DNA of 64,000 nucleotides, taken from contig JAFYAH010000025.1 of assembly GCA_017540825.1 (NCBI GenBank), forward strand, positions 52,104-116,103, in the 5' to 3' direction. A program made the position numbers and the translations under genes. Shown here in pieces: positions 1 to 64,000 of this stretch. Positions within the stretch are counted from its first letter, which is position 1. Each line of letters begins with the position of its first letter. Origin of the DNA: Candidatus Methanomethylophilaceae archaeon (lineage in GTDB: Archaea > Thermoplasmatota > Thermoplasmata > Methanomassiliicoccales > Methanomethylophilaceae). Below the pieces are notes generated by a model. The model was not told the origin of the DNA. It ran no database searches and was given only the letters and a program-made list of their open reading frames with translations.

Positions 1-487
1 CGCCGGGACGGAGGATCCTTATCCATTCGCGGTAGGCCATGCCGGGGTTCGGGAGGGTGAACACGAGGTTCCTGGCGACCACGGCGTCGAAACATCCGTC
101 CTGGAAGCCGGTAGAGGCCGCGTCCCCCCTTACGAACTCTATGTCCAGCCCGGACTGGGCGGCGTTCCATCTCGCTTCCTCCAGCATGCTCTCGCTCACG
201 TCCAGGCCCACGGCCTCGTGCCCCGCCTTTGCCAGGAGGATGGCCACGAACCCTGCTCCGGTTCCGGCGTCGAGCACCTTCAGCCTGCGGCCTCCGGGGA
301 TGCAGCGCTCCAGCTCCGAAGCGACTTGGCTGCTGTTCTTCAAGATAATTCTGGTGAACAGCCCGTATCCTCTGGCGCAGCCGCTCCAGAACTCGGTGAC
401 CTCCTTCTGGAGGGGCTCGCAGACCTCTTTTTCTGGCAAATTCAGGGGACCGTTGCCCATGATTTGAATAACAGGCGTTTTCATCAT
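1..487 (-). CDS. SAM-dependent methyltransferase (3' end outside window)
   Basis: This is a class I S-adenosylmethionine-dependent methyltransferase, read on the minus strand and cut by the window edge. The visible N-terminal part carries the glycine-rich motif I VLDAGTGAGFVAILLA, then the acidic end of strand 2 (VGLDVSES) and a post-strand region ending in FDAVVARNL. Starts are possible at 487, 484 or 460, all in one frame; the doublet ATG at 487 and 484 lies directly after an AT-rich stretch. The gene is divergent from the binding protein at 618. Methyltransferases of this type often neighbour metal-chelate or corrinoid importers, but the substrate cannot be told from sequence. Confidence 0.8.
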   Translation of the reverse strand, partial: MMKTPVIQIMGNGPLNLPEKEVCEPLQKEVTEFWSGCARGYGLFTRIILKNSSQVASELERCIPGGRRLKVLDAGTGAGFVAILLAKAGHEAVGLDVSESMLEEARWNAAQSGLDIEFVRGDAASTGFQDGCFDAVVARNLVFTLPNPGMAYREWIRILRPG

Positions 488-617
488 ATATGTTTCGAAG
501 CAGCAGAACATAACATCAAAAAAAATTGATTGATAAATCGCTTTCAGAGCAACCTTTATGTAATGAATACTTTAGTGAAAGGGTAATTGGATGTAAAGTC
601 CAATATCGAGTGATAAA

Positions 618-2237
618 ATGGACCAAAAGACTCTGATCGCCGTCGTTGCCGTGGTCGTGGCGGCAATAGCGGTCATCGCGGCCGCCTATGCCTTCATGAG
701 CAACGGCAGCAACGACAAAGGCGACAACGACAAGACGGTCGCCGTCTCCGGGATATACCTGAACAAGGCGGAGCTGTCCCTGGACATAGGCGGATCGGCC
801 ACGGTGGCGTGCACGGTATCCCCCGCCGGCGCCAGCGACAAGAACGTCAAGTGGGCTTCCTCCGACGTGTCCGTAGCCACCGTGACGGACGGCGTGGTCA
901 AGGCGGTCGCGGCGGGAAGCGCTGTGATCACCGCAACCACCAACGACGGGGGCTATGCCGCATCATGCAAGGTCGTCGTAGCCGAAGAGAAGCCTATAGC
1001 GCACGACATGACCGTCTACGACGTCAACAGCAACAGGCTCGTCGTCTACGGGAACGCGAACAACGACGACACCATCGACGAAAGGGACCTGGCCATCATC
1101 CAGTCCTACGCCGCCGGGACCAGCACCTGGTCCAAGAGCCTCGCTCCTTTCGCCGACGCCAACGCCGACGGGAAGATCGACCAGAGCGACGTCGACCTCG
1201 TGAAGAAGATCGTTTCCAAGGAGACCTGCAAGGTCAAGTACCTCAACTACAAGAACCATCCTACAGAGGTCACATACCCCTTGCCTACCGACAAGATAGG
1301 GACCACCTACTATCAGGCGGCCTCCATGGCCCAGATGCTGGGCTTGTGGGACAACGTCACCGCATGCGGCAGCGGGTCCCTCAACAACATCTCCTCTCCA
1401 GGATGGGAGTCCAAGTACTCCTACGGCCCCGGATACAACGTCGATCCGCAGACGGTCGTCGATTCCGGAGTCCACACAGTGATCTGCTACACCCAGACCG
1501 ATACGACCGCTTCTCAGATGGTGGAGCTCGTCGAGAGGACGGGGATAGACCTGAACGTCCTCTGCATCAACCACGAGCACCTGCTGAAATGCGTCTGCTC
1601 CTACGGGTTCCTGTTCGACAAGACGGACATCACCGACAAGTATCTCGCCACCGCGGACGAGTGCTCCGAGAGCATCATCGAGTCCATGACCCCTGTGCCG
1701 TCCTCCGAGCAGCCCACCGTGGCATGCGTGATGCTGTACGGGACCGCGACCACCGAGAAGATCCGCGTCCTGGGGTACAACTACGACACCACCAAGAACA
1801 CCCACAACCTCTCCAGGCTCATACACTCCGTTCCCAACGTCAACCAGGTGATGCCCGACATACCCTCGTACGGGACGTACGTGTCGTCGGAGTGGTTCAT
1901 CGAGAAGCAGCCTGACTACATCGTCCTCGTAGGCTCGTCCATGGGCATGGGAGCCGACAAGACCCAGGCCGAGTGCCAGAAGATCTATTACGACAAGTGC
2001 AAGGAGGTGTTCGGAGAGACGAACGCCTTCAAGAACGGCAACATAATCTGCTGCAGCAACGGGATGCTGAACGGCTATTCCAACCCCCTGGTGTCGCTCA
2101 ACGTCCTCTCCGAGATCTACCCCCAGATAGACAAGGAGCTCGGCCAGAAGGCGCTCGACCAATGGTACGGCTACACCCTCCACGACTTCGGAGACATAGC
2201 TTCAGAGAGGGTCTACCGCATCGGCGAAGCCGCCTGA
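618..2237 (+). CDS. Membrane-anchored Ig-like/dockerin-like substrate-binding protein of a FecCD-type ABC importer
   Basis: The 539-residue protein has an N-terminal membrane anchor (about 5-28), one bacterial Ig-like group 2 domain (about 42-121), a dockerin-like pair of calcium-loop segments (NANNDDTIDERDL and DANADGKIDQSDV, about 143-199), and a two-lobed periplasmic-binding region (about 205-539). It should capture a metal chelate (siderophore, haem or corrinoid) at the cell surface and hand it to the permease and ATPase encoded immediately downstream. The ATG follows AGTGATAAA, a Shine-Dalgarno-like GTGAT also seen before the paralogue at 8752. A likely TATA element lies around 554-563. 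The stop is TGA. The fusion of Ig, dockerin-like and binding domains is unusual; the ligand is inferred only from family. Confidence 0.85.
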   Translation: MDQKTLIAVVAVVVAAIAVIAAAYAFMSNGSNDKGDNDKTVAVSGIYLNKAELSLDIGGSATVACTVSPAGASDKNVKWASSDVSVATVTDGVVKAVAAGSAVITATTNDGGYAASCKVVVAEEKPIAHDMTVYDVNSNRLVVYGNANNDDTIDERDLAIIQSYAAGTSTWSKSLAPFADANADGKIDQSDVDLVKKIVSKETCKVKYLNYKNHPTEVTYPLPTDKIGTTYYQAASMAQMLGLWDNVTACGSGSLNNISSPGWESKYSYGPGYNVDPQTVVDSGVHTVICYTQTDTTASQMVELVERTGIDLNVLCINHEHLLKCVCSYGFLFDKTDITDKYLATADECSESIIESMTPVPSSEQPTVACVMLYGTATTEKIRVLGYNYDTTKNTHNLSRLIHSVPNVNQVMPDIPSYGTYVSSEWFIEKQPDYIVLVGSSMGMGADKTQAECQKIYYDKCKEVFGETNAFKNGNIICCSNGMLNGYSNPLVSLNVLSEIYPQIDKELGQKALDQWYGYTLHDFGDIASERVYRIGEAA

Positions 2238-2267
2238 TCAAACGGGGGGAGACCCCCATCTTACGGA

Positions 2268-4541: not shown

Positions 4542-5645
4542 ATGGCGACGATCGAGGAGCAGATCAAGGAATTGGAGGAGCAGATCTCCAAGACCAAGTA
4601 CAACAAGGCCACAGAGGCGCACATAGGCAAGCTGAAGGCCAAGATCGCTCGCCTGAACGAGGAGGAGGAGAAGAGGCGCGCCTCCAAGGGCGGGAACACC
4701 AAGGGGTTCTACGTCAAGAAGGCCGGGAACGCCACCGTCGCCCTGGTCGGATTCCCCTCGGTCGGTAAGTCCACCCTGCTGAACCAGCTCACCGGAGCGA
4801 AGTCGGAGGTGGGGGCTTACCATTTCACGACGCTGGACGTAGTCCCCGGCGTTATGGAGTACAACCACGCAAAGATCCAGATCCTGGACATGCCCGGCCT
4901 GATAAAGGACGCCTCCCGCGGCAAGGGGAGGGGGAGGGAGGTGATCGCCGCCGCCAGGTCCGCGGACGTCATCCTGCTGGTGGTGGACATATTCAACCCC
5001 AACATGAACGTCCTGTTCAAGGAGCTCTACAACGCGGCAATCCGCCTCAACCAGAAGAGGCCCGATGTAGTCATCACGCAGGGGGACCACGGAGGTCTCC
5101 TGGTGAAGCCCACCGTCAAGCTCACCAAGATAACCGTGGACACCATCAGGGATATGGCCGCGGCCTACGGGCACATCAACGCCACCATAGTCGTCCGCGA
5201 GGACATAGACGTGGAGCAGATGCTGGACGTCCTGGCCGGGAACAGGGTCTACATCAAGGCGGTAATGGCCATCAACAAGGTCGACCTCGCCAAGCCCGGG
5301 CAGCTGGAGGCGGTGAGGGAGATGCACAAGCAGTACCTCAACGTCCCCGTCTCCGCCGCCACAGGATACGGCATGGAGGAGCTCAAGCAGGCCATCTACG
5401 ACACCATAGACATGATCCGCATCTACCTGAAGCCCCAGGGCCAGGAGGCGGACATGGACATCCCGCTGATCGTCAAGCGCGGGAACACCGTCGGGGACGT
5501 CTGCGAGCTCATCCACAGGGACTTCAAGAACAACTTCCGTTATGCCATGGTCTGGGGGAAGAGCGCCAAGTTCCCCGGCCAGACGGTCGGGATGGACCAC
5601 AAGGTCGAGGACGAGGACATCCTCTGCATCATCGTGCGCAGGCGA
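4542..5645 (+). CDS. DRG-family (Obg-HflX-like) translation-associated GTPase
   Basis: Archaeal DRG GTPase, expected to bind GTP and act on ribosomes or translation. The coiled N-terminal helix (about 1-60) is followed by G1 GFPSVGKST, G3 DMPGLIKDA, G4 NKVD, an inserted helical region, and a C-terminal TGS domain ending at about residue 367, the normal family length. There is no TGA, TAA or TAG at that end. The frame instead meets its first CGA at 5643-5645, directly after the residues CIIVRR. Conventional translation would run on for another 371 codons, antisense through the next gene and into the PAP2 gene in frame. The CGA forms one half of CGATCG, whose other half ends the convergent gene. 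Confidence 0.93.
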
Positions 5646-6161
5646 TCGGAGCCCGGTCGCGCCCAGGCATGCGGAGCGCAGGCATTCGGCCACGTCGTCA
5701 ACGAAACACGCCGGGACCCTCATCGTCACGGTTGTCTTCTCCGTCCTTCCGAACCTGACGGACTCCGCGTTCTTGTTCGCGATTATCACGTTCACGTCGT
5801 CGAAGCTCACGGAGAACTCCGGGCCGAACGAGCTGCCGTCCATGCCAGCGTCCACTGCGGACAGCTCCACCGCATCCCTGGCGATCTCCCTGAAGATGCT
5901 CGGCCCAGGTATTCCCAGGTCGAAGCGCTCGCCTACGCTCGGGTTGCGCCCGGTCACGCGGGACCCGCCGATGCAGTAGGCCATCGTCCTGCCTCCGTCT
6001 ATGTAAATCCATGCGAGGCCGTCCTTCAGGCGGACCAGGTCCTAGACGTCGCTTTCCGAGAACGCCTTCGAGAAGTCCTCCCTCACGGCTTCCGCGCATT
6101 CGTCGCAACCCCTCGTCTTCGGGACGGCCGAGCAGGCCTTCTTGTATCCGAACAGCGCCAC
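5646..6161 (-). CDS. Uncharacterised protein with an in-frame TAG (candidate pyrrolysine) and a CGA end
   Basis: I do not recognise the family. Reading the minus strand from a GTG at 6161 gives about 39 residues (Cys-containing, including TRGCDECAEAV), then TAG at 6042-6044, then uninterrupted protein-like sequence in the same frame (DLVRLKDGLAWIYIDGG, later IIANKNAESVRFGR and ACFVDDVAECL). Continuity across TAG suggests read-through as pyrrolysine, as known for this lineage. If TAG terminates, the visible pieces would be a 39-residue peptide and a second gene from the ATG at 5984. The frame ends at CGA (5648-5646), the mirror image of the DRG end. Without CGA as a stop it would continue antisense through the whole DRG gene. 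The start is uncertain. Confidence 0.6.
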
Positions 6162-6236: not shown

Positions 6237-6761
6237 ATGGAAGAGCTGGACATCATATATTGGATCCAAGGCGCGTCCCCCGCCCTGGACGGCCTGATGG
6301 TCGGGGCGTCCGCCGCAGCCACGTACGGGGCCGCATGGCTGCTGCTGGCCTTCGTCCTCACCTGCTTCCCTGAGAGGAGGGAGGCCGGAATAGCGGTCCT
6401 GGCGGCCGTCGCGGTGTCTTTCGTGGTCGTGGACGTGATAATGAAGCCGGCCATTTGCCGCCCCAGGCCGTTCGACGTGGCGGACCTGGAGCTTATAGTC
6501 TCGGCCCCGTCGTCTTATTCGTTCCCTTCCGGACATACGGCGTATTCCTTCGCCGCCGCGACGGCGCTTCTTTTCTATGAGAGGAGATGGGGTCTGGTGG
6601 CGATGGCCCTGGCATGCCTCGTGGGGGTATCCAGGGTGTACCTGTGCCTGCATTGGCCCACGGACGTCCTGGCAGGGGCCGTCGTCGGGATCCTGTCGGC
6701 CGTGGCGTGCGTCTGGCTGGTCAGGAGGTTCTATGCGGGGGACCTCGAAGCTGGAGGATGA
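6237..6761 (+). CDS. PAP2-family membrane phosphatase
   Basis: The 174-residue membrane protein carries the three PAP2/acid phosphatase motifs: KPAICRPRP (K-x6-RP), PSGH in YSFPSGHTAYS, and SRVYLCLHWPTD (SR-x5-H-x3-D). It should dephosphorylate a lipid phosphate or polyprenyl pyrophosphate at the membrane. Several hydrophobic helices span the protein. The ATG at 6237 opens it. It is in the same frame as the DRG gene, but the 591 bases between belong to an opposite-strand gene, so a genuine DRG-PAP2 fusion is very unlikely. It ends with TGA and overlaps the convergent ATPase gene by about 17 bp. Confidence 0.88.
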   Translation: MEELDIIYWIQGASPALDGLMVGASAAATYGAAWLLLAFVLTCFPERREAGIAVLAAVAVSFVVVDVIMKPAICRPRPFDVADLELIVSAPSSYSFPSGHTAYSFAAATALLFYERRWGLVAMALACLVGVSRVYLCLHWPTDVLAGAVVGILSAVACVWLVRRFYAGDLEAGG

Positions 6762-7518
6762 CGTGCGGGGACCCGTGGTCGTCTATGATCTCGCACGGGA
6801 CCTCGTACACCTCCTCGATCATGCGCTCCGTGACGATCTGCCCCGGAGGCCCTATCCCGTACAGCTTCCCGGGCGGAGCCATCACCAGGACCTCGTCGGA
6901 GAACTTGGCGGCCAGGTTCAGGTCGTGGCTTATCATGAGGACGGTCATGCCGGTCTTCTCGCACAGCGTCTTCAGGAACGCGGAAACGTACATCTGGTGG
7001 CGGACGTCCAGGTTCGACGTGGGCTCGTCCAGTATCAGTATCCTGGGCTCCTGGACCAGGCCCCTGGCCAGCGACACCTTCTGCCTCTGCCCTGCGGAGA
7101 GCTCGCTGAAGTACCTCATGGCCAGGTCCCCTATCTCCATGCTCTCCAGCGCACCGTGGGCTATCGCCAGGTCCTCAGGGGTGGTCCTCCACTTCTGATG
7201 CGAGTACCTCCCTATCAGGACGGTGTCCAGGACCGTGAGGACGTTGAAGTCGGCGTTCATCACCGGGACGTACCCGACGACCTTGGCCAGCTCGTCCAAG
7301 CGGTAGTCCCTGACGTCCCTGCCGTATATCGACACCTTCCCCGAGCCCGGCTTTATGTGCCCGGTTATGCACTTGATGAGGGTGGACTTCCCCACCCCGT
7401 TGGGGCCGATTATGCAGTAGAACCCCGGCTCGTCTATGCGGAAGGTAATGTCATGGAGTATGGTGCGCTCGTCGTATCCGAACGAGAGGCCTTCGACGTC
7501 TATGATGCTCTCTCCCAT
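6745..7518 (-). CDS. ABC importer ATPase, FecE/BtuD type
   Basis: A 257-residue ATPase with Walker A GPNGVGKST, signature LSAGQ, Walker B ILILDEPTSNLD and MISHDLNLA. It resembles the ATPase at 3413 along its whole length and ends after HVILQL at CGA (6747-6745); conventional translation adds eight residues before TGA at 6721. The 257-residue length then matches the 256 of its paralogue. It is the second gene of a minus-strand pair with the permease at 7520, one base apart. No binding-protein gene belongs to this pair unless the divergent 986-residue protein at 8752 serves it. Confidence 0.93.
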
Positions 7519-12779: not shown

Positions 12780-13607
12780 ATGGCTGGGCTTGAAGTCGAC
12801 GGCGTATGCTTCTCCCACGGCAGGAGGAGGATACTGGACGGCATATCCTTCGACGCGTTCAAGGGGGAGGTCCTGGGGATACTGGGGCAGAACGGCTCCG
12901 GGAAGACCACCCTTCTCAACTGCATAAGGGCGGAGTACCGTCCGGAGAGAGGAAAGGTGACGCTCGTGGACCTGTCCCAGGACGTGGTCGGGTTCATGGG
13001 CTCCGTCGACGTCCGCGACTTGTCCGAGCACGAGCGCTCCCAGGTGATGGCCATAGTGGAGCAGAACTCTTCCATGAACTTCCCGTTCACGGTCATGGAG
13101 GTCGTCAGGATGGGCAGGTACTCTCGCGCAGGGATCCTGGACGAAGGCTCGGAGGCCGAGACGGAGGCCGTGTGCGCGGCGATGGAGTCCACAGGGGTCC
13201 TGGAGTTCAGCGACCGCGACGTGGACGAGCTCTCTGGAGGGGAATGGCGCAGGGTCATGATCGCCCAGGCCCTCGCCCAGGAGCCGGAGATACTGCTGCT
13301 GGACGAGCCGACGCTCCATCTGGACATCAACCACCAGTTCGACCTGATGGACCTCTGCAGGGAGATAGCGTCCGAGCGCGGGATGCTCGTGGCCGTCGTG
13401 ACCCACGACCTGCAGCTGGCAGCCAGGTACTGCGACCGCATCATAGTGATGAAGGACGGCAGGATAGAGTCCATGGGCGCTCCCGAAGAGGTGGTCACGC
13501 CAGACATGATAGGGAGGGTGTTCGGCATGAGGGCGAGGGTCGAATACGACGAGGAGATTGGCGGGCTGTCGGTGACTCTGATAGGAAGGGACAGGGGAAA
13601 GAGGCGA
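12780..13607 (+). CDS. ABC importer ATPase, BtuD/HmuV type
   Basis: The ATPase of the importer begun at 8752. Walker A is GQNGSGKTT, signature LSGGEW, Walker B ILLLDEPTLHLD, followed by VVTHDLQLA. The protein is 275 residues if it ends at the first in-frame CGA (13605-13607) after IGRDRGKR. The conventional reading adds 16 low-quality residues and overlaps the following region. An ATPase of the same subtype, with the DEPTLHLDIN Walker B variant, occurs at 31508-32299. The start ATG lies one base after the permease TGA. Confidence 0.92.
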
Positions 13608-19943: not shown

Positions 19944-20164
19944 GACGGTTCTGGGATAGGTCGGCGAGTCGAGCGGCATGAGGCGTATCCTGTCCATGCG
20001 GCATCTTTCTATGTTCGAGCCGATGCTTTCGGCAAGACCATCTGCAGAACAGCCAGCCGTCATCGCTTTCCAGGCTCGAGAACGCGAATCGTTCGCAGAG
20101 GCGATTCGGACTAGTCCCGCCTTCGGCAGACATGTTAAAGGCATCTCATCGCATGACTCCTCGC

Positions 20165-21283
20165 ATGAGCGGGCTGTCAGCGAGGGAGCGCTCCCTGGGA
20201 TGCCTCTTCGGAGGTGCGATCGGCGATGCGTTCGGGTACACCGTCGAATTCTCCGACATCCAGTCGATAAAGGAGAGGTTCGGAGAGAGCGGCCTCCAGG
20301 AGCCGGTCCCTTTCGAGGGGAGGTACAGGATATCGGACGACACGCAGATGACCCTGCTCACGGCCGACGGCCTGCTCACGGGAGAGACGAGGTTCTGCTG
20401 CAGGGGCATAGCGTCCTCCCCTGCGGACTACGCATTTCCGAAGTACAGGATGTGGGCCAAGCTCCAGGGGTTCAAGGTCCCTGGCGTCGTCCACGAGTCC
20501 TGGCTGTTCAGCGATCCGTATATGTATGCCCGGCGCTCCCCCGGGAACACGTGCATAATGGACCTGTGCCAGAACGGGTCCGCTGCGAGGCCGGGCGAGC
20601 CGAGGAACGACAGTAAGGGATGCGGCGGCCTCATGAGGGCGGCACCCGCCGGCATCGCCGCGCACAGGTTCCTGGACCCGGACACGAAGGCCGTCGAGTG
20701 GGGCGAGGAGACAGCCGCCGCCACGCACGGGCATCCGCTGGGATGGATGACGGCGGCCATGATGGCAGGCATCGTCAACCGCATCTTCTGCGGAGACGGC
20801 CTCGAGGAGTCTGTAGACGGCTCGCTCAAGGCTTGCGATGCCCGGTACGGCGGGAGCCATCACATGTCGGAGCTCTCCGGAATCGTCGGCAAGGCGCTGT
20901 CCTTGGCCGGGTCGGAGAAGGACGACCTCGAATGCATGGCCGAGCTGGGATACGGGTGGGTGGCAGAGGAGACGCTCGCCATGGCTCTGTTCGCGTGCCT
21001 CAGGCACCAGGACGACATCAAAGGGTGCCTCAGATGCTCTGTGAACGTCACCGGTGACTCAGACTCTATAGGGTCGGTGGCCGGAAACATCCTGGGTGCC
21101 CTCCTGGGGATGGATGCGGTGGGGAAGGCGTTCGACATCGGCAGGATCGAATGCTTCGATCTTATAGAGACGACCGCTGAGGACCTGGCTTCGGGATGCC
21201 CTACGGACGGGCGGGTGCTGACCGACGATGGATGGGAGGACAGGTACGTCCGCTGCGTGAACCCCAAGGCCTCCGGCAATCGA
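20165..21283 (+). CDS. ADP-ribosylglycohydrolase family protein (DraG/ARH-like)
   Basis: The 372-residue protein shows the family signatures in order: GGAIGDAFG near the N-terminus, SDDTQMTLLTADGL (metal-binding Asp pair), GGLMRAAP, THGHP, and the C-terminal GDSDSIGSVAGNILGA. Such enzymes remove ADP-ribose from proteins, classically from Arg of dinitrogenase reductase, or from other acceptors. The ATG at 20165 fits a TTAAA element about 25 bp upstream; earlier ATGs exist at 20132 and 20153. The frame meets CGA at 21281 and again at 21287, directly after a normal family end (VNPKASGN). The conventional reading runs on through the hisS promoter to 21361. The nitrogenase-like H protein at 41 kb is a speculative target. 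Confidence 0.88.
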
Positions 21284-25822: not shown

Positions 25823-25845
25823 CGGGCTTGGGTCATCCCCGGGCG

Positions 25846-31446: not shown

Positions 31447-31507
31447 CCAACGCATGGCCGAAGTTATCGTAGGGTCATAGATGAACGTTTCCCCGATGCT
31501 CCTATCT

Positions 31508-40966: not shown

Positions 40967-41190
40967 GGTTCATAATACAAGGTCTACGATAAAACCGTTG
41001 GCAGGAGATTCCCGGGCAGGTTAAAACCGGCACCCTGCTGGGCAGAGCAGAGGCGCATGCGAACAGCCTAGTCCTCCCTTCCAAGGTCTAATTCTATAAG
41101 AGCGCATGCGGAGTCGGGCGGAAGGCGATTCCTGGAGGCTCGATATGATTTTATTTGGCCGCATGGATGGAACCTCCAGAAGTGTTGCCG

Positions 41191-42042
41191 ATGTTCCAGG
41201 TCGCGTTTTATGGGAAAGGCGGTATAGGAAAGTCCACGATGGCCGCGAACGTGTCGTATTCGCTGGCCTGCAAGGGCAAGAAGGTGATGCAGGTGGGATG
41301 CGATCCCAAGCACGACTCCACCCGTCTCCTCCTGGGCGGAAGGGCCCAGGGCACGGTGCTCGACTACGTCCGCTCCGTCCCGGTCCTCCAGAGGAAGCTC
41401 GAGGACGTGATAGGGACGGGGTCCGGAGGGGTCATCTGCGCCGAGGCAGGAGGACCCGAGCCAGGCATAGGCTGCGCCGGGCGCGGCATCCTCACGACCT
41501 TCGACACCTTGAAGAAGCTGGGCGCCGACGGCCTGGACGTGGACATAAGGATCTACGACGTTCTGGGGGACGTCGTCTGCGGCGGGTTCGCGGTCCCTCT
41601 GAGGGGGGAGTACGCCGACGCCGTGGTGCTGGTGACATCCGGCGAGTTCATGTCCATGTACGCCGCCAACAACATCATGAAAGGCCTGGCCAACTTCGAC
41701 ACGGGGAAGCCCCGCCTCCTCGGCATGATCCTCAACTCGCGCGGAGTGGAGGACGAGGAAGGGTCCGTAGGGAGGTTCGCGAAGGCGACCGGAGTCCCGA
41801 TAATCGCCGTCATGCCCCGCGACTACGCCTTCAGAGACGCCGAGGCGGCCGGGAAGACGGCGCGCGAGCTCCGCCCGGACTCGGAGATATCCAGGAGGGT
41901 GGACGCCATCGCCCAGGCGGTCTCAGATGCGGCGGAAGGGAAGGCGCGGCTGTTCTACCCGCACCCTCTGGACGACCTCCAGCTCTCCGACCTGGCCGCA
42001 GGCAGGGAGATACGCGCCCCATCCGCCCCGGCCAGCGACCGA
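41191..42042 (+). CDS. NifH-like ATP-dependent reductase of a nitrogenase-like system
   Basis: The 283-residue NifH/BchL/CfbC-type iron protein has P-loop YGKGGIGKSTMAAN, the NifH-type GCDPKHDSTRLLLGG, and both Cys regions that hold the bridging [4Fe-4S] cluster (GGPEPGIGCAGRGI and YDVLGDVVCGGFAVPLR). It should deliver electrons with ATP hydrolysis to the D/K-like partners. After APSAPASD the frame contains CGA at 42040-42042, the only CGA in a 724-codon open frame and exactly at normal NifH length, so I treat this as its end. Conventional translation gives an H-D fusion. The start is chosen at MFQVAF; ATG at 41167 and TTG at 41155 are alternatives. TATA-like TGATTTTATTT lies at 41147-41157. 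Confidence 0.88.
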
Positions 42043-42096
42043 CAACCCTGCGAAGGCTGCCCCAGGCGCAGGTCGTCCATACGCGACACCAGGATC

Positions 42097-43329: not shown

Positions 43330-44594
43330 GGACGCTCCCAGACGGGTTCAACGGCGCCGTGATGGCGGTGGAGAGCATCGAGGACGCCGCGGTGCTCCTG
43401 CACGGGCCGGGAGGCTGCAGGATAAGGCATATGATCCACTCCACAGCGACGTTCCCCAGGGTCGCCCCAGGCTCCCCGGAGGACTACTACGGGATCTACT
43501 ACTACGGGTACCCCAGGGTCCCGGCCACCTACCTGGACGAGTACGACTTCATAAACGGCGCCTTCTACAAGATGTCAGAGGCGCTGCCTGTGGTGGCGGC
43601 GAAGGAGCCCTCGATAATCGTGGTCATAAACTCGCCCGGTGCGGCCCTCATAGGCGACAACCACGAGAAGGCCATCAGGGACAGCGGGCTGGAGGGCAGG
43701 GCGATTTACATGGACGAGTCCCTGGTCTCGATGCCCATGACCGAATGCTACGGCCACATGCTCCGCGCCGTCATGGAGCACCTGTCCCCCGAGAGGAGGG
43801 ACGTCGTCCCGGGAACGGTGAACCTGCTGGGCCTGTCGCTTTTCGACAAGGACTGGGCCGCAGGCAGGGAGGAGCTGTGCGCCATCGTGGAGAGCATGGG
43901 CCTGAAGGTCGTCTCCACCCCAGGGGCGGGGGCTTCGGTGCAGGACCTGAAGGATTCCGTCTCCGCCGAGATGAACGTCGTGGTCTGCCCCGAGATGTGC
44001 GCCGGGCTGCTCGAGTACTACGAGTCCCTGGGGATCCCGACCGTCCGTTCCCCCGCGGGGGCGCCTGTGGGCTTCTCCGCCGTCAGGGAGTGGGCGAAGG
44101 CGGTGGCCGTCGCAGCCGGGAAGGATCCCGGGCCCGCTCTCGAGAAGGTCCGCTCAGCCGAGAGGAAGGTCTACGACAAGCTCATGGGGATGAAGTACAA
44201 CGCCCTGCGCATGAGGGGGATGTCCTTCTCCATCGCCGGGACCGCCTCCGTGGTCAGGCCTCTGGCCGAGTGGCTGTACAGCTACCTCTCCATGGTGCCG
44301 GTCGCCGTCGCGGTCGATCCCGGGGCGGACGAGAGGGAGGTTTCCATGCTCAGGTCCTTCCTGGACGAGAGGGACTTATCGGACTCCTTCGGGAAGGAGC
44401 CTCTGGAAGGCAGCGAGGCAGTCCTATGCGAGGGCGTCACAGCGCTCACCATGGCCGAGGCCTCGGGATGCATCGGGATCCCGATTGGGCATTCGTGCAC
44501 CGGGATGGACGACATAATCCCCCGCCCGATATACGGCGTCCAGGGGGCGCTCTACATACTGGACGAGATGATGCACGGCGTCAGGGGAAGCCGA
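43326..44594 (+). CDS. NifK-like subunit of a nitrogenase-like reductase
   Basis: A 422-residue component-1-type protein starting at a GTG that overlaps the NifD-like TGA. The first Cys region is HGPGGC; the second family region reads INSPGAALIGDN, with Ser or Gly where cluster-binding Cys usually stands, so its cluster differs from a P-cluster. A C-terminal GCIGIPIGHSCTGMDD holds two further Cys. It ends after MHGVRGS at CGA (44592-44594); the conventional frame continues 310 codons antisense through the exporter genes, and a GC hairpin follows the CGA. It probably forms a D-K heterotetramer reduced by the H protein. No nifB, nifE or nifN is nearby. Confidence 0.85.
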
Positions 44595-46898: not shown

Positions 46899-47768
46899 AT
46901 GCCCGTGGCCGGCGATCCTATCGTAGAAGTGGAAGGCCTGACTATCCGCTTCGGAGACTTCACCGCCGTAGATGGACTCACGTTCAGCATCGAACGCGGT
47001 GAGGTCTTCGGTTTTCTGGGGCCGAACGGAGCCGGGAAGACCACTACGATAAGGGCCATCACGACGATACAGCGTCCCACCTCCGGAAGGGTCGTCATCG
47101 ACGGCCACGACTCCTCCACGGACTATCTGGAGGCCAGGCGCTGCATAGGGATAGCGCAGCAGCACATAAGCCTCGACAAGGACCTGACCGTGCGCCAGAA
47201 CATAAAGTACCATGCGATGCTCCACAAGATCCCTAAACGCGTCATGGAGGAGAGGGTGAAGAGCCTCTCGGACATGCTGGGGCTGGGGGAGCATATGGAC
47301 AAGAAGATAGCCGACCTGTCCGGAGGGTGGAAGAGGAAGGCCGCGATAGTGTGCTCCATACTCCACGAGCCGTCCGTCCTCTTCCTGGACGAGCCCACCG
47401 CAGGGCTGGACACCCAGTCCCGCCATCTCCTCTGGGAGCTCGTCAGGACGCTCAACTCCCACGGGACCACGATATTCCTGACCACACATTACATAGAGGA
47501 GGCGGAGTCGCTCTGCGACAGGGTGGCGATAATCGATAGGGGGAAGCTGTCGGCGATCGGGACGGTGGACGAGCTCAAGGACATCGTGGGCAAGGTGACG
47601 GTGGACGTCTCCGAAGGGAGCAGGACCGTCCCATACCATTTCGCGTCCCGGGAGGAGGCAAAGGCCTTCGCCGAGTCCCAGGGCGGGGAGTTCTTCAACA
47701 TCCGCAGGACGACGCTGGAGGACGTCTTCCTCGCGCTGTCCGGCGACGCCAAGGGGAGGCTGGGACGA
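46899..47768 (+). CDS. ABC exporter ATPase (DrrA type)
   Basis: The 289-residue ATPase has Walker A GPNGAGKTT, Q-loop IAQQHISLD, signature LSGGWKRK, Walker B VLFLDEPTAGLD and LTTHYIEEAESLCDR. It is paralogous to the minus-strand ATPase at 45389. Its CGA (47766-47768) overlaps the permease ATG as CGATG, after GDAKGRLG; the conventional reading adds 29 residues inside the permease gene out of frame. GGGGGAGA precedes the ATG as a Shine-Dalgarno-like sequence. Confidence 0.93.
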
Positions 47769-48518: not shown

Positions 48519-49154
48519 TCGCAGCAGGCCGCAGAGCTCGGGGAGGCTCTCCGCGTACGGGACGCCCTCCCTCTCGCAGACGTCCTTGGGAAGCCCGTAC
48601 CCGTACGCCGCGGCGACGAAGTCCATGCCGAGGGCCCTCGCCGCGTCCAGGTCGTCGAAGGAATCTCCGATCATGACCGCCTCGTCGACGTCGGCGCCCG
48701 CGTCGGCCAGGCACCTCTCGATGAGCTCGCGCTTGGATATGGCCGTCTTGAAGTTGGTGCCCCTGACAGAAAGGAACATGTCGCGGATCCCGAGCTTCTC
48801 CAGCGTCCTGACCGAGAACTCCTCCACCATCATGGTGGCCACGCACAGGACGTAGCCTTTGGACCGCAGGCATTCCAGCGCCTTCCTCGCCCCGGGATAG
48901 CCGGTGCACATGGAGAAGCCTTTGTCCACGTAATGGGAGACGTAGACCTTGACCCCTTCCATTATCCTCTCCGGCGGTATGCCGACTATCCTGACCATGT
49001 TTTCGACGAAAGGGCCGCCGAGCCCGCTCCTGAGGGACTCCTCTGGGATGTCTGGCCTCCCGAAGGCCTCGCCCGTCCTCCTGTAGCAGTACAGGATGCC
49101 CTCCGACGAATCGGACAGGGTCCCGTCCAGGTCGAACACCAGCAGCTTCTTCAT
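48519..49154 (-). CDS. HAD-superfamily hydrolase, phosphoglycolate phosphatase-like
   Basis: The 211-residue phosphatase has motif I FDLDGTLSDS, motif II in CVATMM, a conserved Lys (ISKRELIE region), and motif IV MIGDSFDDLDAARALGM. It resembles phosphoglycolate phosphatase or pyrophosphatase members; the substrate is unknown. The frame meets CGA (48521-48519) after LPELCGLL, so it abuts but does not overlap the exporter gene; the conventional reading adds six residues and overlaps that gene by 20 bp. The start at MKKLLVFD is preferred over an upstream extension. Confidence 0.87.
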
Positions 49155-49236
49155 GAACGGGTGATGCGCCACGGGTTTAAGTGCTTTCGACCGCGGGAAC
49201 CGCAACCGATATCATCCCTGCCAACATAGTTCGCCC

Positions 49237-50361
49237 ATGGATTTCCAGGAAGCGGTCTCGAAAGCCGAGGCAGGGGACGTGGACGCGATGGTCGAAGCCG
49301 CACGCATGCTCCGCGAGGGGGACGGCGCAGGCAAGGACCTCCGTCTCGCCGTATCGTATCTCAGGAAGGCCGCCGATGCGGGAAGCGCCGCCGCAGCCTC
49401 GTCCCTGGGCTACATGTACATGATGGGGGAAGGCGTCAAAGCCGACCCGTCGGAGGCGGAGAGGCTCCTCTCGTCCGCTGCGGCGGCAGGGGATCCCGGC
49501 GCTATGTGCAACATGGGCGTCCTGTTCTCCGCGAAGGACCCCCTGCGCTCGCTGGAATGCTTCGAGAAGGCCGCGACCATGGGCAGCGCTCAGGCGATGA
49601 AGAACCTGGGCGCGATGTACTCCGCAGGGCAGGGAGTGGTCGCGGACAGGAGGAAGGGCGCGGAATGGTACTCCAAGGCCGCCGACCTGGGGGACGCCGA
49701 CTCCATATGCGTTCTCGCCTCGATGTACCGCAACGGCGACGGGGTCCCGGTGGACAAGGCGAAGGCCGCCGAGCTCTACAGGAGGGCCGCAGACATGGGC
49801 GAATCCGACGCGCAGTACGACCTGGCGTTCATGCTGGACTCGGGAGAGGGCGTCCCTGCGGACCACGAGGAGGCGGAGAGGTACTTCCGCATGGCGGCAG
49901 ACCAGGGGGACTCCGACGCGTGCCTGTGCATGGGAGGGATCCTGTTCGAGAAGGGGCAATACAAGGACGCAGAGGACTACTTCCTCACGTCCGCTCTGAA
50001 GGGGGACGTGAAGGCGGAGTACAACATCGGCCTCCTCTACATGGGCGACTACCTGGGCGCTTCCGATTTGGGGAAGGCGAAGGAGTGGTTCTGCTCCGCC
50101 GCTGACAAAGGGTTCGCGCTGGCCCAGACGATGCTCGGGACCATCGCCCTGGACGAAGGCGATCCCGGGGAGGCCGAGAGGCGCTTCAGGGAGTCCGCCG
50201 AGCAGGGCGAGCCGACGGCCATGTACAACCTGGGGGCGATGGGGCTCTCGGGGCAGGCCGGGATGGAGTACCGGGAGTCCGTAGAATGGCTGACGAGGGC
50301 GGCGAAAGCAGGATACCAGCCTGCCTACGAGGTCTTGATGCGCCTGGGCTCCCAGGGACGA
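49237..50361 (+). CDS. Sel1-like repeat protein
   Basis: The 374-residue protein is built of about ten Sel1-like (TPR-related) repeats of some 36 residues, for example ALKYLRKAADAG-like and NLGAMYSAGQGVVADRRKGAEWYSKAA-type units. Sel1 proteins are scaffolds for protein-protein contact, often in signalling or surface assembly. No signal peptide is visible, so it is probably cytoplasmic. It ends after MRLGSQG at CGA (50359-50361). The conventional frame continues 29 codons into the convergent HAD gene and contains a further CGA. Confidence 0.88.
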
Positions 50362-56714: not shown

Positions 56715-57680
56715 ATGTCCGCGATCACGCTCCTCAAGAGCAGCGCATTCATGATGACACTCGCCCTGGTGGTGGCCTTGGCGACCAACTTCGGAGGCGT
56801 GTTCCCCGGAGGGGTGCTGTCCGCCGATGTGCGCTCGAACCTCACGGTGATAACGCTCGCTGTCATGCTCACCGTCTCCCTTTCCAGGATCCCGTACAAG
56901 AACCTGAACCCCGTGACCCACAAGAAATCTGTCGCCAGGGCCGTCCTACTCGGCCTGGTGGTGTCCTCGATAATCCCGCTGGCCGGCTATTTCCTTTTGA
57001 AGGACACCGAGTTCGGAAAGCAGGCCATGGGGCTGGTGTTCATCGCCGCCACACCCTTCGCGGCTTCCGTGGGGCCCCTCTCCTACATCCTGAACGGGGA
57101 CATGGAGCATGCGATGAGGGGGACCATAGTGGTCTACGTCATAGCCCTCGCCTGGATCCCGTTCATCGTCTGGCTCGCGCTGGGCGAGTTCGTCGACATG
57201 ACCAACGTGTTCATAACGGTGATAGAGCTCATCGCGGTCCCGCTGGTGGTCTCCAGGCTCCTGACCAAGGTGAGCATGAACAAGGACTACATGGCGGTGT
57301 TCCTGAACTGCTGCATATTCTTCCTGGTGTGGCTCTCCGTCGGGTCCACCAAGTTCGCAGGCGACGCCTGGATATTCGCCGCGTTCCTGCTCATAGCGGC
57401 CTTCAGGTCGTTCGGCCTCGGGATAGGGGTGGAAGCCGTAGAGAAGAAAGCCGGGATCCACTGGTCCCAGAGGGTCACCGACATCCTGATGACCTCGTAC
57501 AAGAACAAGGGGATAGCCATCGCGACGTGCATGGCCGTCCTCGGCCCCACAGGTCTGGCCCCCGTGGCGATGGTGGCGATAGCGACCTCGATAGTGGTGG
57601 AGGTCCTCTGGGTGGCGTTCATGGACTCCGTCCTGTTCGGAAGGAAGAGGATGGAGAAGGAGCTGGCGTCGGAGGCTTGA
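56715..57680 (+). CDS. SBF-family (bile acid:sodium symporter-like/arsenite-type) transporter
   Basis: The 321-residue membrane protein has about ten helices and resembles the SBF/BASS and ACR3 superfamily (paired repeats, NFGGVFPGGVL start, FIAATPFAASVGPLSYILNGD with the polar cross-over region, GPTGLAPVAMVAI in the second repeat). Substrate (organic anion, pantothenate-like or arsenite) is uncertain. The ATG at 56715 is preferred; the frame extends upstream through AT-rich promoter DNA (TTAATTATTTAACG and TTAATTATATAG). It ends with TGA, overlapping the end of the convergent XRE gene by 12 bp. Confidence 0.83.
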   Translation: MSAITLLKSSAFMMTLALVVALATNFGGVFPGGVLSADVRSNLTVITLAVMLTVSLSRIPYKNLNPVTHKKSVARAVLLGLVVSSIIPLAGYFLLKDTEFGKQAMGLVFIAATPFAASVGPLSYILNGDMEHAMRGTIVVYVIALAWIPFIVWLALGEFVDMTNVFITVIELIAVPLVVSRLLTKVSMNKDYMAVFLNCCIFFLVWLSVGSTKFAGDAWIFAAFLLIAAFRSFGLGIGVEAVEKKAGIHWSQRVTDILMTSYKNKGIAIATCMAVLGPTGLAPVAMVAIATSIVVEVLWVAFMDSVLFGRKRMEKELASEA

Positions 57681-57905
57681 AGGGGGGTCCCCCTCCTCCT
57701 CGTCCTCCACATACTCCAGTATGTCGCCGGGCTGGCATCCGAGCGCCTTGCAGATGCCGTTCAGGGTGGAGAACCTTATGGCGGATATCTTGCCGGTCTT
57801 GATGTTGGACAGGTTCACGTTCGAGATGCCGACCTTCTCCGCAAGGAGGTTCAGGGACATCTTCCTGTCCGCCATCACCCTGTCCAGCCTGAGGATTATA
57901 GCCAT
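57669..57905 (-). CDS. XRE/Cro-type helix-turn-helix regulator (YozG-like)
   Basis: The 78-residue protein is a compact Cro/C1-type HTH: LDRVMADRKMSLNLLAEKVG, then the recognition helix region SNVNLSNIKTGKISAIRFST and the ending GICKALGCQPGDILEYVEDE. It matches small regulators that pair with DUF2975 membrane proteins. It ends at CGA (57671-57669) after DPPSSL, near the normal length of this family. Conventionally the frame runs 240 codons antisense through the SBF gene. Start is 7 bp after the CGA end of the partner gene. Confidence 0.85.
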
Positions 57906-57912
57906 GGTCGCC

Positions 57913-58428
57913 TCGGAGGGTCTCGTCGGACTCCTTCTGCAGGACCCCGCCGTAGCGGAAGGCGAGCGCGAGGCAGTAGATCACGACCCCCGCCATCACC
58001 GACCCGAAGAACATGAACATGGCGGTGGCTATGCTCCCGCGGGCGACCCAGTCGGCTACGGCCAGAAGGACCGAGAAGACGAGGTAGGCCTTTGACAGGA
58101 ACCTCATGGCGTCTACGTTCCTCTCGCTGAACGGGCTGTGGTCCCTCTCCACCGCCTTCATGAACCTGTATATCACGATCACCGTGACCAGGCCGAGCGA
58201 CAGTATCGTCACCATCTCGGCGACGGCCGCTATCCCCGAGGCGGACGACAGGTCCCCGGGGCCGGTCCATGCGGACAGCATGTCCGAGAACGCTCCGCTT
58301 CCCAGCGCCGCTCCTGCGCACAGGGCGAGCGTCCCGGCCAGGAGGGCGGCGAGGCCGACGGCTCCGCAGAGCATCGCCGCGGACGCGTAATGGCAGATCT
58401 TCTTCAGGGTGTTCAGGTTTCCTTTCAT
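57913..58428 (-). CDS. DUF2975-type four-helix membrane protein
   Basis: The 171-residue protein has four membrane helices (about 13-38, 67-88, 108-127, 132-155) and the DUF2975 landmarks RDHSPFSERNVDAMR and the end GGVLQKESDETL. DUF2975 proteins are regularly encoded just upstream of a small YozG-type HTH gene, exactly as here; the pair probably forms a membrane-linked regulator. The CGA (57915-57913) directly follows SDETL, the usual end of the family. The start at 58428 (MKGNLNTLKK) is well placed. Confidence 0.85.
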
Positions 58429-60119: not shown

Positions 60120-60731
60120 ATGGAAGGGCATTATTCCAAGTGTCTTCTTCGCTCCATCCTGGCGGGCATGTGCATAGGCATAGGCGGCTGCGTCTACATA
60201 GGGTGCGACGTCAAGTGGGTCGGGGCGATCCTGTTCTCCATAGGGCTGTTCACCATACTGACATACGGCATGGACCTGTACACCGGCAAGGTGGGGTACG
60301 CCGTAGACAACCCTCCGTCCTACGTCAAGGACCTTCTCGTGATCGTCATAGGGAACTTCATCGGGACGTTCATCCTGGGGATGATGATGCCTCTGGAGGG
60401 CGCCCAGGTACTCGTGGCCAAGAAGCTGGAGTCGTTCGCGCTCATGTCTGTCTTGTTCAAGGGGGTGCTCTGCGGGATACTGATGTTCATCGCCGCGGAC
60501 ACGTTCAAGACGGGGAAGGGCCCTCTGGCGACGTTCATATGCGTCCCGGTCTTCATACTGGCCGGGTTCGAGCACAGCATCGCGGACATGTTCTACTTCT
60601 GCTCCGCGATGGAGTTCAGCCTTGACGCGCTCGCGTTCATAGTGGTGGTCATAATAGGGAACGCGATAGGTGGCATGCTGATACCGTTCTGCAGGAAGCA
60701 CATGTACGAGAGCAGGCCAGAGGCGGCGCGA
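60120..60731 (+). CDS. FNT-family (formate/nitrite transporter-like) channel
   Basis: The 203-residue protein is a short member of the FNT (FocA/NirC) family with six helices. It has the first-repeat sequence KCLLRSILAGMCIGIGGCVY, a broken-helix region FTILTYGMDLYTGKVGY, and the second-repeat FEHSIADMFYF with the central His typical of FNT pores. Permeant (formate, nitrite, hydrosulfide or acetate) is open. Family members are usually about 250-280 residues. The end is marked by tandem CGACGA (60729-60734); conventional translation adds 55 residues antisense to the next gene. TATA-like CATATAAG lies at 60082-60089, supporting the ATG at 60120 over 60075. Confidence 0.88.
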
Positions 60732-60736
60732 CGAGG

Positions 60737-62155: not shown

Positions 62156-62299
62156 CTGTGTCGGTCTGATACCGGCGCATGCTCGGATATAGATTGTGCT
62201 GCGGGGACGATATCGACGGAGCCGTCGCGGACAGCAGGGAACATCATATAAGCTCCTGCATGAATCTGGCGGTCACGACCGTCAGCGCCGGTGGTTGCA

Positions 62300-62725
62300 A
62301 TGGCATCGAGTAGGATCATCTGCTACGACGAAGGGTTCATCGACAGTTTCGAGAGGCTGAGGGAGATGATAGAGGCCGGGGACCGCCCTGCTCTGCACCG
62401 CTACCTGATAGAGAGCTTCGGCTTCGTCTTCGAGACTTTTCAATACTATGCGAAGCACATTGCGGAAGGCTGCGCTAGGGACTTCGAGGAAGCGGACGAA
62501 GAGACGAAGCGCGAGCTGATGAGGCCCCTTTCGCACAGGCAGTACCGGATGATAGAGAGGTCGTTCTCGATCTGGGAGGAAGAGACGGAAGACGTCATCT
62601 GGTCGATATGGGACTTCCTTCATGACAACGGCAGGATATACCGGAAGAAGGCCACGAGCTCGGCGGAAGTGGGAGGCTGCTCGCTGATACTGGAGCAGGT
62701 ATATCGCGTTCTGGACAGGCCGCGA
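62300..62725 (+). CDS. Small helical protein of unknown function
   Basis: I recognise no family. The 141-residue protein is mainly alpha-helical and acidic (IICYDEGFIDSFERLREMIE, then EEADEETKRELMRPLSHRQY, IWEEETEDVIWSIWDFLHDN) and ends EQVYRVLDRP at CGA (62723-62725), followed by a second CGA at 62738. The conventional end is 18 codons later in Arg/Pro-rich sequence. The ATG at 62300 is chosen over GTG at 62291. It stands alone between divergent and convergent neighbours. Confidence 0.65.
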
Positions 62726-63005: not shown

Positions 63006-63527
63006 TCGTTCTATCTGGTCAACGACGAATTCGAGGGGGACGCTTCCGACCAGGTACACCCCGTCGGCGGAGCGGTAGAACCGGAACCCTTCGCGATGCA
63101 TGCGGCTCGCATCGATCACCAGGGCTATCGCCTCCCCGTGCCTCCGCCCGACGCCGATCGCCTTGTCGGGGTCGTCGCTCAGATGGACCATGTGGCGCCC
63201 CATGGGGAGGATGCTCCCCGAATCCTGGATGGCTTCGAGCCCTGCTGACGATGTCCCGTGGAAAAGCGTGTCCGGAGGCTGGGCGCTCTCGTACTCCACC
63301 GGGAACGAATGCCCATGCAGCGCTCTCACGGTCCGCCCGTCCTGAGAGAGCTGGTAGCGGGTGTTCCTGGCGACCTCCTGTTCCAGGCGTTCGCAGTCCC
63401 AGCGGAGCTCCGCTAGCACCGTGTCCACCGGGAACCATCCTTCGATGTCGTGCTCAAGGTCTCCGCGATGCCTGAGAACCTTCGCCAAGCGCCTGCCGTC
63501 TGCAGAACGGTCGTCTTTCGATGTCAT
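63006..63527 (-). CDS. kptA: RNA 2'-phosphotransferase (Tpt1/KptA)
   Basis: The 173-residue protein matches Tpt1/KptA, which transfers a 2'-phosphate of RNA to NAD. It has an N-terminal winged-helix part (AKVLRHRGDL, GWFPVDTVL) and the catalytic landmarks NTRYQLSQDG, RALHGHSFPV, FHGTS, MGRHMVHLSDD and GVYLVGSVP. It ends at CGA (63008-63006) after EFVVDQIE. The conventional frame continues 27 codons to about 62922 without family similarity. It is divergent from an AT-rich region of about 425 bp. Confidence 0.9.
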
Positions 63528-63952
63528 GGGGGATGCGGTCGCAGTAGCGCGTTCCGAGATATCATTGTGACGGCTTACATGAGGGTTTTGTCGTTGTTAT
63601 GCTCGAAGATGAGGGCGTCAGCTGGGTGTTCTCTGTGCTCATTTGTCTGTAGTAATATGATAATGATTGGGTAAAATGGCCAAGAGGACGGCAAGGTCAT
63701 CGTATTTGCGGGCGATGGGCCCGAGTAAGCGGAGCTCAGAGCATCTGACGGAACGATCGGCATGATGATGTGGAGGCTCGCGAAGGAACGAGCGGAACGT
63801 CTTCTACCGCAATCCCTCGCATGGAACCTCATGCATAGGATTATACTTGGCGCTCACATCCCGAACTCTCGTTTTAAACTCCGATCTTTTGTAACAAGTT
63901 GATTGCTGGCTCTCCATGCATTTATATATTAAAACATTGTTATATTATAACA
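63528..63952. other. Intergenic region, AT-rich at its right end, no clear gene
   Basis: About 425 bases between kptA and the partial gene at the window end. A short frame from 63676 (MAKRTARSSYLRAMG) and weakly protein-like stretches near 63750-63830 might be remnants of an older gene or insertion element, but I cannot support one. The right end (63880-63952) is AT-rich promoter-like DNA including TTTATATATTAAAA. Confidence 0.4.
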
Positions 63953-63955
63953 ATG
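63935..63955. repeat. Perfect 21-nt palindrome overlapping a start codon
   Basis: CATTGTTATA, one T, TATAACAATG: ten perfectly paired bases on each side of a single central base. Its right arm contains the ATG of the partial gene at 63953. It may be an operator for autoregulation or a terminal repeat of a mobile element. Confidence 0.75.
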
Positions 63956-64000
63956 ACTTATGACTTCGTCCAGAAGGTCGGCAACAATTACTACCTCTAC
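63953..64000 (+). CDS. Start of an unidentified gene (cut by window end)
   Basis: Sixteen codons are visible: MTYDFVQKVGNNYYLY. This start is reminiscent of transposase N-termini of the IS4/IS1634 type (a short lead-in before a basic domain), but far too little is visible to assign it. The start codon lies in a 21-nt palindrome and about 25-30 bases after TTTATATATTAAAA, a plausible TATA region. The surrounding AT content differs from the housekeeping genes. Confidence 0.4.
   Translation, partial: MTYDFVQKVGNNYYLY

Follow-up and report, generated by a model that had tools for sequence, protein, structure and literature searches.

In a 64,000-nucleotide stretch of the genome of a Candidatus Methanomethylophilaceae archaeon (GenBank assembly GCA_017540825.1, contig JAFYAH010000025.1, positions 52,104 to 116,103 of the forward strand), the arginine codon CGA stands where genes are expected to end. 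This whole stretch is called the window below (G000:C23:52104-116103, G000 being our label for the genome). In a larger sample of the same genome, roughly one gene in four has CGA at its conserved end, whereas gene interiors are almost free of it. We consider it likely that CGA is a stop codon read by the archaeal release factor aRF1, and that a CGA codon within the aRF1 gene itself would make aRF1 synthesis self-limiting. The first-pass annotation of the window, made from its letters alone, had proposed that CGA was captured as a stop, and the comparative sequence data support this strongly. It had also stated that no such use of CGA was known, and our search of openly licensed PMC papers (preprints excluded) found none.

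CGA at gene ends and in gene interiors

The genome (a 2.37 Mb archaeal assembly of 73 contigs, 95.6% complete) was sampled through the window and 20 larger stretches (317 kb), together 381 kb or 16% of the genome; beyond this sample, small tRNA and aRF1 loci were also read. Genes were called with a codon-bias caller to whose stops CGA had been added, at a loose and a stricter cut-off. The loose cut-off gave 58 genes in the window, 25 of them ending at CGA, and the stricter one gave 52, with 22 CGA, 28 TGA and 2 TAA ends. CGA was found on the expected strand at all 26 positions that the first-pass annotation had listed as gene ends. Twenty-two of these are in the stricter calls and two more, at 21281 (ADP-ribosylglycohydrolase) and 63008 (KptA), have Pfam support, whereas we do not count those at 34805 and 46774 as shown (Table 2). 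A Pfam family was found for 20 of the 25 CGA-ended proteins scanned, and many profiles finish near the CGA, among them TGS (in DRG), PanD, FecCD and DUF2975. CGA makes up 2.5% of all window triplets; the triplet itself is therefore not avoided there, as first noted. Across the 381 kb, 299 genes end at TGA (190), CGA (80), TAA (21) or TAG (8).

We then compared these ends with those of homologues, using alignments of at least 40% identity that covered at least 60% of the length and reached the last five residues. Homologue ends were usable for 21 of 72 CGA-ended query genes. Of 168 homologue ends, 164 fell within five codons of the CGA (119 TGA, 26 CGA, 12 TAA and 7 TAG), and 117 fell exactly at the CGA codon; the same test on 32 TGA-ended genes placed 249 of 254 homologue ends within five codons. 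Among same-genus relatives, CGA accounted for 41 of 234 homologue ends. All six species compared (G000, G018, G001, G026, G029 and G028) share the CGA that closes PanD. In ArgS of G028, which is CGA-ended, the DALR domain match extends right up to the C-terminal residue. A Pelota-like aRF1 paralogue with eRF1 domains 1 and 3 (L002:1495-2520, on G000:C54), which we take to be Pelota, ends at an in-frame CGA only one residue beyond the last of its Pfam domains.

If CGA were merely a rare arginine codon, with proteins continuing to the next standard stop and the apparent ends due to chance or misannotation, one might expect it to be minor in related genera, and it is (117 of 6,830 Arg codons in alignments from other genera). 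The presence of a tRNA-Arg(UCG) gene would also fit, as would a standard stop fewer than 10 codons past the CGA in 23 of the 80 CGA-ended genes, which makes those 23 ends individually less telling. Against this, the stretches downstream of CGA show no coding bias, Pfam domains end and homologues stop at the CGA, and the distance to the following standard stop bears no relation from species to species, as in PanD, where that stop comes 23, 23, 22, 3 and 29 codons on in the five relatives. We regard this explanation as very unlikely. An assembly or base-calling artefact turning TGA into CGA has nothing in its favour beyond the two codons being one transition apart. Separate assemblies, SIG7, SIG8, RGIG6046 and Tb.RUG.172 (matched to G018, G028, G001 and G026), show CGA at the same ends, and the window has plenty of TGA out of frame. 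We put the chance of an artefact at practically nil.

Editing of CGA to UGA in mRNA by C-to-U conversion, with the UGA read in the ordinary way, had been rated less likely in the first-pass annotation. It would account for the fact that homologues of CGA-ended genes mostly end at TGA, one transition away. A general editor would, however, also alter NCG codons followed by A (Ala to Val, Thr to Met, Pro or Ser to Leu), and in this test editing failed. In alignments with other genera, the fraction of residues kept for NCG before A versus NCG before another base was 0.58 versus 0.62 for ACG (n = 411 and 899), 0.78 versus 0.74 for CCG (183 and 1,247), 0.55 versus 0.52 for GCG (925 and 1,609) and 0.59 versus 0.56 for TCG (163 and 523), n being aligned pairs, several per codon. 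Editing limited to in-frame CGA at gene ends would require recognition of the frame, and it would leave the aRF1 CGA and the tRNA mismatch described below unexplained. We consider editing extremely improbable.

Because the caller excludes internal CGA by construction, its count of 0 CGA among the 885 Arg codons of the 52 window genes follows from the method, and interior CGA was tested by homology. Screens that returned 649, 62 and 41 in-frame CGA were swamped by shadow-frame alignments, and a cleaner query set was used. In 18,934 conserved-alignment codons of the sampled genome, this set left four in-frame CGA: Arg78 of aRF1, the gene junction at window position 42040, and two in single-query alignments that we take to be shadow reading frames. 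Shadow frames were judged by how they cluster and overlap other genes, not site by site. We take Arg78 of aRF1 to be the one real internal CGA among these codons, in keeping with the near-absence first reported; Arg occupies this position in 68 of 69 queries and Lys in one. In these conserved codons of the 381 kb sample, CGA is absent from interiors save in aRF1, as would be expected of a sense-to-stop change.

Coding-like sequence follows two CGA-ended calls beyond the 80, aRF1 and the NifH-family gene ending at window position 42040. At the latter (42040-42100), the next gene continues the NifH-family frame after the CGA with no standard stop between in G000, G018, G001, G026 and G029, and readthrough would give a fusion protein.

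CGA ends were also tallied in relatives (Table 1), after overlapping loci had been removed and calls with coding-like downstream sequence left out (two in G028 and one each in G018, G001, G029, G009, COG_1, UBA78 and 1R26; in G018, G001 and G029 it is the same NifH junction). In named records, the genus members are gut and rumen Methanomethylophilaceae and related metagenome-assembled genomes. In COG_1, of another genus, a nitrogenase-type oxidoreductase has its CGA one residue past its domain, and PheS likewise has a CGA end, though a standard stop follows after two codons.

Table 1. CGA-ended genes in relatives of the window's genome. Clear, noncoding sequence downstream; near, fewer than 5 codons before a standard stop. 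Where only a zero was recorded, the other cells are empty.
Group	Genome or locus	Clear	Near	Ambiguous	Genes
Same genus	G028	28	2	2	83
Same genus	G001	12	3	1	55
Same genus	G026	10	1	1	41
Same genus	G021	5	1	0	53
Same genus	G009	3	1	0	21
Same genus	G029	3	3	0	41
Same genus	G018	2	2	0	43
Same genus	G020	2	0	1	41
Same genus	G014	1	0	0	39
Same genus	G007	1	0	1	41
Same genus	G030	0	1	0	26
Other genera	G034	0			37
Other genera	G032	0	1	0	40
Other genera	L178	0	0	1	20
Other genera	L185	0	0	1	19
Other genera	L189	0	0	1	20
Other genera	L202	0			14
Other genera	UBA78	2	0	0	19
Other genera	1R26	2	0	0	24
Other genera	COG_1	4	2	0	19

The release factor gene and tRNA-Arg(UCG)

A release factor that accepts CGA, as the first-pass annotation had suggested, is the best-supported mechanism, and the strongest evidence pointing to it is the in-frame CGA of the aRF1 gene, which lies outside the window (G000:C72:25651-26880). 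This CGA encodes the conserved Arg78. The codon is CGA in 26 of the 27 same-genus genomes in which it is readable, and it is the sole CGA in the aRF1 sequence read (one locus begins only at the Arg78 codon, and another breaks off at residue 281). G028 (isolate SIG8; genome 87% complete) is the exception, with CGC for Arg78 and an aRF1 gene that itself ends at CGA.

To compare aRF1 with its neighbours, we used 80 named loci, with one variable gene left out of the neighbour count, and called a locus CGA-poor if its neighbouring genes offered 30 or more aligned Arg codons, none of them CGA. In the 44 CGA-poor loci, CGA accounts for 52 of 965 Arg codons of aRF1 versus 0 of 5,057 in the neighbours (Fisher P = 1e-42, ignoring kinship, as do all P values for this enrichment). 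At least one aRF1 CGA is present in 40 of these loci and exactly one in 32, at Arg78 in 17, at Arg25 in 12 and at other sites in 3. The enrichment is weaker in 28 CGA-using loci (56 of 638 versus 84 of 2,651 Arg codons). In a tree, 11 of the 12 sole-Arg25 loci form their own clade (support 100/100), with the twelfth, L179, elsewhere; the genus forms a separate clade (20 rows, 100/98), within which G028 branches first.

The surroundings of Arg78 are also constrained. Among the fixed codons of 16 aRF1 genes from the genus, that of Arg78 departs most from what codon usage predicts. Where residue 77 is Ala (12 of the 16), its codon is always GCT, which makes up 10% of Ala codons there, and Ser77 is TCT wherever present among the 15 loci listed, all of which share the context GCT/TCT-CGA-CTN. 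The base after the Arg78 CGA is C in 15 of these 15 loci versus 13% after 78 ordinary CGA stops; Leu79 contributes to this, forcing most of the C. The Arg25 CGA is followed by GGA in 11 of 12 loci. Translation past the aRF1 CGA stays in the same frame, and no +1 frameshift is needed. An in-frame CGA at Arg78 or Arg25 predicts a same-frame switch resembling that of bacterial RF2.

Loss of tRNA-Arg(UCG), which the first-pass annotation had offered as the cause, was not borne out: the gene is present in the window's genome, albeit with a mismatch at 31:39, and only G028 seems to be without it. The four closest matches within the genus carry a counterpart with 96-97% identity to it, which rules out a contaminant contig as its source. 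Among the 39 intron-free tRNAs of the genome, it alone has a 31:39 mismatch. Within the genus, an A.A or C.A mismatch at this pair was seen in 17 of 18 genomes read, or in 14 of 15 sequences when identical ones are counted once; the five copies from other genera lack it. The eighteenth, G007 (one contig), has 31:39 paired, C33 in place of U33 and 27:43 open, and this is the only one of its 42 tRNAs without U33. In G028, 43 tRNA matches in the 87%-complete assembly include Arg anticodons TCT, CCT, CCG and GCG and no TCG, and a DNA search with tRNA-Arg(UCG) returned seven matches, all to other tRNAs. The status of this tRNA is given only for genomes read, since the G007 copy escaped DNA and pattern searches and misses elsewhere are uninformative. 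The 31:39 mismatch may weaken tRNA-Arg(UCG). Separately, tRNA-Arg(GCG), tRNA-Gln(TTG) and tRNA-Ser(GCT) are not among the 41 tRNA matches of the window's genome; they are perhaps lost to assembly gaps, because G007 and G028 have them.

On this basis, we favour a model in which aRF1 and tRNA-Arg(UCG) compete at CGA. At ordinary aRF1 levels, aRF1 would win, so that genes end at CGA and CGA is purged from interiors. When aRF1 is scarce, the tRNA would read the Arg78 CGA in aRF1 mRNA and full-length aRF1 would be made. With abundant aRF1, termination at that codon would instead release a stub of 77 residues. G028 would lack the loop, with tRNA-Arg(UCG) not found, Arg78 encoded by CGC, aRF1 ending at CGA and about one-third of sampled genes CGA-ended. 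In its full form, in which CGA reading by aRF1 purged the codon in at least two clades, made it the stop at up to one-third of gene ends and left the last CGA of aRF1 (Arg78 in one clade, Arg25 in another) as a readthrough switch for a selectively weakened tRNA kept for one codon, we think the model probable, with less assurance than we attach to the reading given at the outset. At L044:10651-13644 (on G000:C72), the gene immediately after aRF1 is homologous to G028 argS; its product would charge the competing tRNA-Arg(UCG).

Two alternatives bear on this model. Ribosomes might stall at CGA for want of a strong or abundant tRNA and be rescued by Pelota/ABCE1-type factors, with no codon recognition by aRF1. 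The tRNA-Arg(UCG) mismatch or C33 in the genus and the tRNA not found in G028 would agree with this, and a Pelota-like protein is encoded. Stalling does not predict, however, that of all genes examined aRF1 should keep CGA at a fixed site and in a fixed context, nor that substitutions should appear in the codon-reading loop of aRF1 in CGA-using lineages, and we judge it improbable. Alternatively, CGA could be a stop in general and yet, at Arg78, slow or pause the ribosome to serve another role, for example in folding or mRNA stability. The constraint on the codon before Arg78 and the different context of Arg25 speak for such a role, whereas the presence of aRF1 CGA in 40 of 44 CGA-poor loci is what feedback by a release factor predicts; we hold a pausing role to be unlikely, though worth keeping in mind.

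How aRF1 would read CGA was sought in its codon-recognition residues, which the first-pass annotation had proposed to compare with relatives. Changes were indeed found in relatives: the aRF1 proteins of G001 and G006 have NIRS for NIKS, and in that of G028 KN at 66-67 is replaced by NH, a pair that no other aligned segment listed shows. Aligned to human eRF1, these correspond to K63 and L69-S70. A further candidate, a T63-specific residue, was dropped when outgroup Thermoplasmata were found to have KSKTT as well.

Several observations weigh against the reading of CGA as an aRF1-read, self-limiting stop. In the window's own genome, aRF1 keeps NIKS intact and shows neither of the changes seen in relatives, and thus offers no candidate residue for accepting C at the first codon position. 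G014, G007 and G030 hardly use CGA ends, yet their aRF1 carries the Arg78 CGA. Four of the 44 CGA-poor loci have no aRF1 CGA, CGA positions in aRF1 vary outside the Arg78 and Arg25 clades, and the Arg25 CGA is followed by G, whereas in RF2 it is a C that weakens termination. As the first branch of the genus, G028 may have lacked the Arg78 CGA from the start. Coding-like sequence follows some of the CGA-ended calls made in relatives, as noted above. Finally, same-genus alignments of 82,100 codons contain internal CGA at 16 places, confined to two variable query genes, one fast-evolving and the other probably with misplaced starts; we do not read these as Arg codons, though they were not resolved singly. 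Near aRF1 lies a fast-evolving 428-aa gene (L044:7753-9039) without a Pfam family, whose same-genus homologues have several in-frame CGA, many near their starts.

Relation to known systems

Sense codons have become stops in organelles: UCA and UCG in sphaeroplealean algal mitochondria (PMC6821328), and UUA and UCA in peDinoflagellate plastids, which the cited part of a 2025 paper calls the first case outside mitochondria (PMC12574857). In the cited parts of both papers, as here, the sense codon is absent from interiors and found only at ends. Those cases also involve changes in the release factor and tRNA set, to which the aRF1 substitutions of some relatives and the tRNA-Arg(UCG) mismatch may correspond. 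Unlike those cases, the present one would concern a cellular archaeal genome, the Arg codon CGA, a release factor of the eRF1 type and a tRNA kept with a mismatch. If it holds, it would be the first sense-to-stop change in a cellular, non-organelle genome as far as we could find, the papers located describing such changes only for mitochondria and chloroplasts. It would also be a change in progress, with species having hardly any, few or many CGA stops and stages differing too in the tRNA (mismatched or apparently missing) and in release-factor substitutions.

Other reassignments of arginine CGN codons, as far as the cited part of the Codetta paper goes, are of CGA and CGG to Trp in Absconditabacteria and of CGG in Firmicutes (PMC8629427). 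There, as here, an Arg CGN codon was made rare and its meaning changed, although those cases are sense-to-sense and in low-GC bacteria. According to the cited part of PMC9825746, Codetta cannot detect sense-to-stop changes, so a CGA stop would have escaped it.

The aRF1 gene resembles bacterial prfB (RF2) in having a cognate stop in frame early in its own gene within a conserved cassette, and in the C that follows it at the Arg78 site here and nearly always in RF2, as described in the cited part of PMC5009743. RF2 depends on +1 frameshifting, whereas here the frame continues, so that readthrough by an Arg-tRNA would make the protein. The same part of PMC5009743 considers a same-frame early UGA for RF2, states that neither such an RF2 gene nor an RF1 counterpart was known, and points to readthrough in a release factor of a giant virus. 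The aRF1 switch, if real, would supply the same-frame autoregulation of a release factor once expected for RF2 and, by that account, not found there. Our literature query on release-factor autoregulation by readthrough turned up nothing related.

The open 31:39 pair, the lowest of the anticodon stem, recalls tRNAs with 4-bp anticodon stems, in particular the class opened at the very bottom (cited part of PMC13092985). The tRNAs studied there are Trp tRNAs opened at the top, which read UGA better, whereas we infer weakening from an opening at 31:39. With CGA as a stop, standard-code gene calls in these gut methanogens would carry false C-terminal extensions, and a release factor that tolerates C as the first base of the codon would offer a test of the way U1 is ordinarily recognised.

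Genes and features of the window

The CGA-ended genes of the window are collected in Table 2. For the DRG-type GTPase, codon bias marks the 40 codons downstream as noncoding.

Table 2. CGA-ended genes of the window, with the position of the CGA and the evidence for each end. Positions are those of the window.
Feature	Coordinates	Strand	CGA	Evidence
DRG-type GTPase	4542..5645	+	5643-5645	Pfam MMR_HSR1/TGS, TGS to 364/367 aa
112-aa ORF	5646..5984	-	5646-5648	codon-bias call; no Pfam family
ABC transporter ATPase	6745..7518	-	6745-6747	Pfam ABC_tran
ABC transporter ATPase	12780..13607	+	13605-13607	Pfam ABC_tran
ADP-ribosylglycohydrolase	20132..21283	+	21281-21283	Pfam PF03747; absent from stricter calls
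CotH-family protein	24426..25781	+	25779-25781	Pfam CotH to 439/451 aa
ACT / metallo-beta-lactamase protein	25828..27291	+	27289-27291	Pfam
PanD aspartate decarboxylase	31108..31455	-	31108-31110	Pfam to 109/115; CGA at identical position in 5/5 relatives
ABC transporter ATPase	31508..32299	-	31508-31510	Pfam; six homologues stop (CGA, TGA or TAA) within 5 codons
FecCD permease	32293..33321	-	32293-32295	Pfam to 335/342; five homologues TGA, same or next codon
125-aa ORF	34803..35180	-	34803-34805 (claimed)	weak; no Pfam family; absent from stricter calls
ABC ATPase (SufC in first-pass annotation)	37324..38055	-	37324-37326	Pfam ABC_tran; G018 CGA; four relatives TGA 3-6 codons off
FMN reductase	38173..38754	+	38752-38754	Pfam; same position CGA in G001, G026, G028, TGA in G018, G029
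237-aa ORF	38755..39468	-	38755-38757	no Pfam family; same codon TGA in four relatives, CGA in one
187-aa ORF	39468..40031	-	39468-39470	no Pfam family; CGA ends in G018, G026, G029
NifH-family protein	41155..42042	+	42040-42042	Pfam Fer4_NifH to 282/295; CGA at same place in G018, G001, G026, G029
Nitrogenase component 1-type oxidoreductase	43308..44594	+	44592-44594	Pfam Oxidored_nitro to 421/428; homologues 5/5 TGA, same codon
ABC transporter ATPase	46899..47768	+	47766-47768	overlaps next ATG; Pfam; G018 TGA, same codon
HAD hydrolase	48519..49205	-	48519-48521	Pfam to 223/228; G018 TGA, same codon
Sel1-repeat protein	49237..50361	+	50359-50361	Pfam; two homologues, TGA at 0 and TAA at +1
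HTH regulator	57669..57905	-	57669-57671	Pfam HTH_26 to 68/78
DUF2975 protein	57913..58428	-	57913-57915	Pfam to 170/171, at the family's cut-off
Formate/nitrite transporter family	60120..60731	+	60729-60731	Pfam
144-aa ORF	62291..62725	+	62723-62725	codon-bias call; no Pfam family
KptA RNA 2'-phosphotransferase	63006..63527	-	63006-63008	Pfam to 160/173; absent from stricter calls

TAG, which ends only 8 of the 299 sampled genes, may serve as a pyrrolysine codon; PylS (TIGR02367) was found above cut-off in all six same-genus genomes searched (for example G000:C68:15595-16233). Wide use of TAG as a sense codon seems unlikely, as most TAG-containing ORFs look like antisense ORFs. The window also holds two identical tRNA-Asp(GTC) genes 0.7 kb apart (34582-34655 and 35274-35347), a large BspA-type leucine-rich repeat protein (14974-17586) and a Fic-domain protein (22633-23658).

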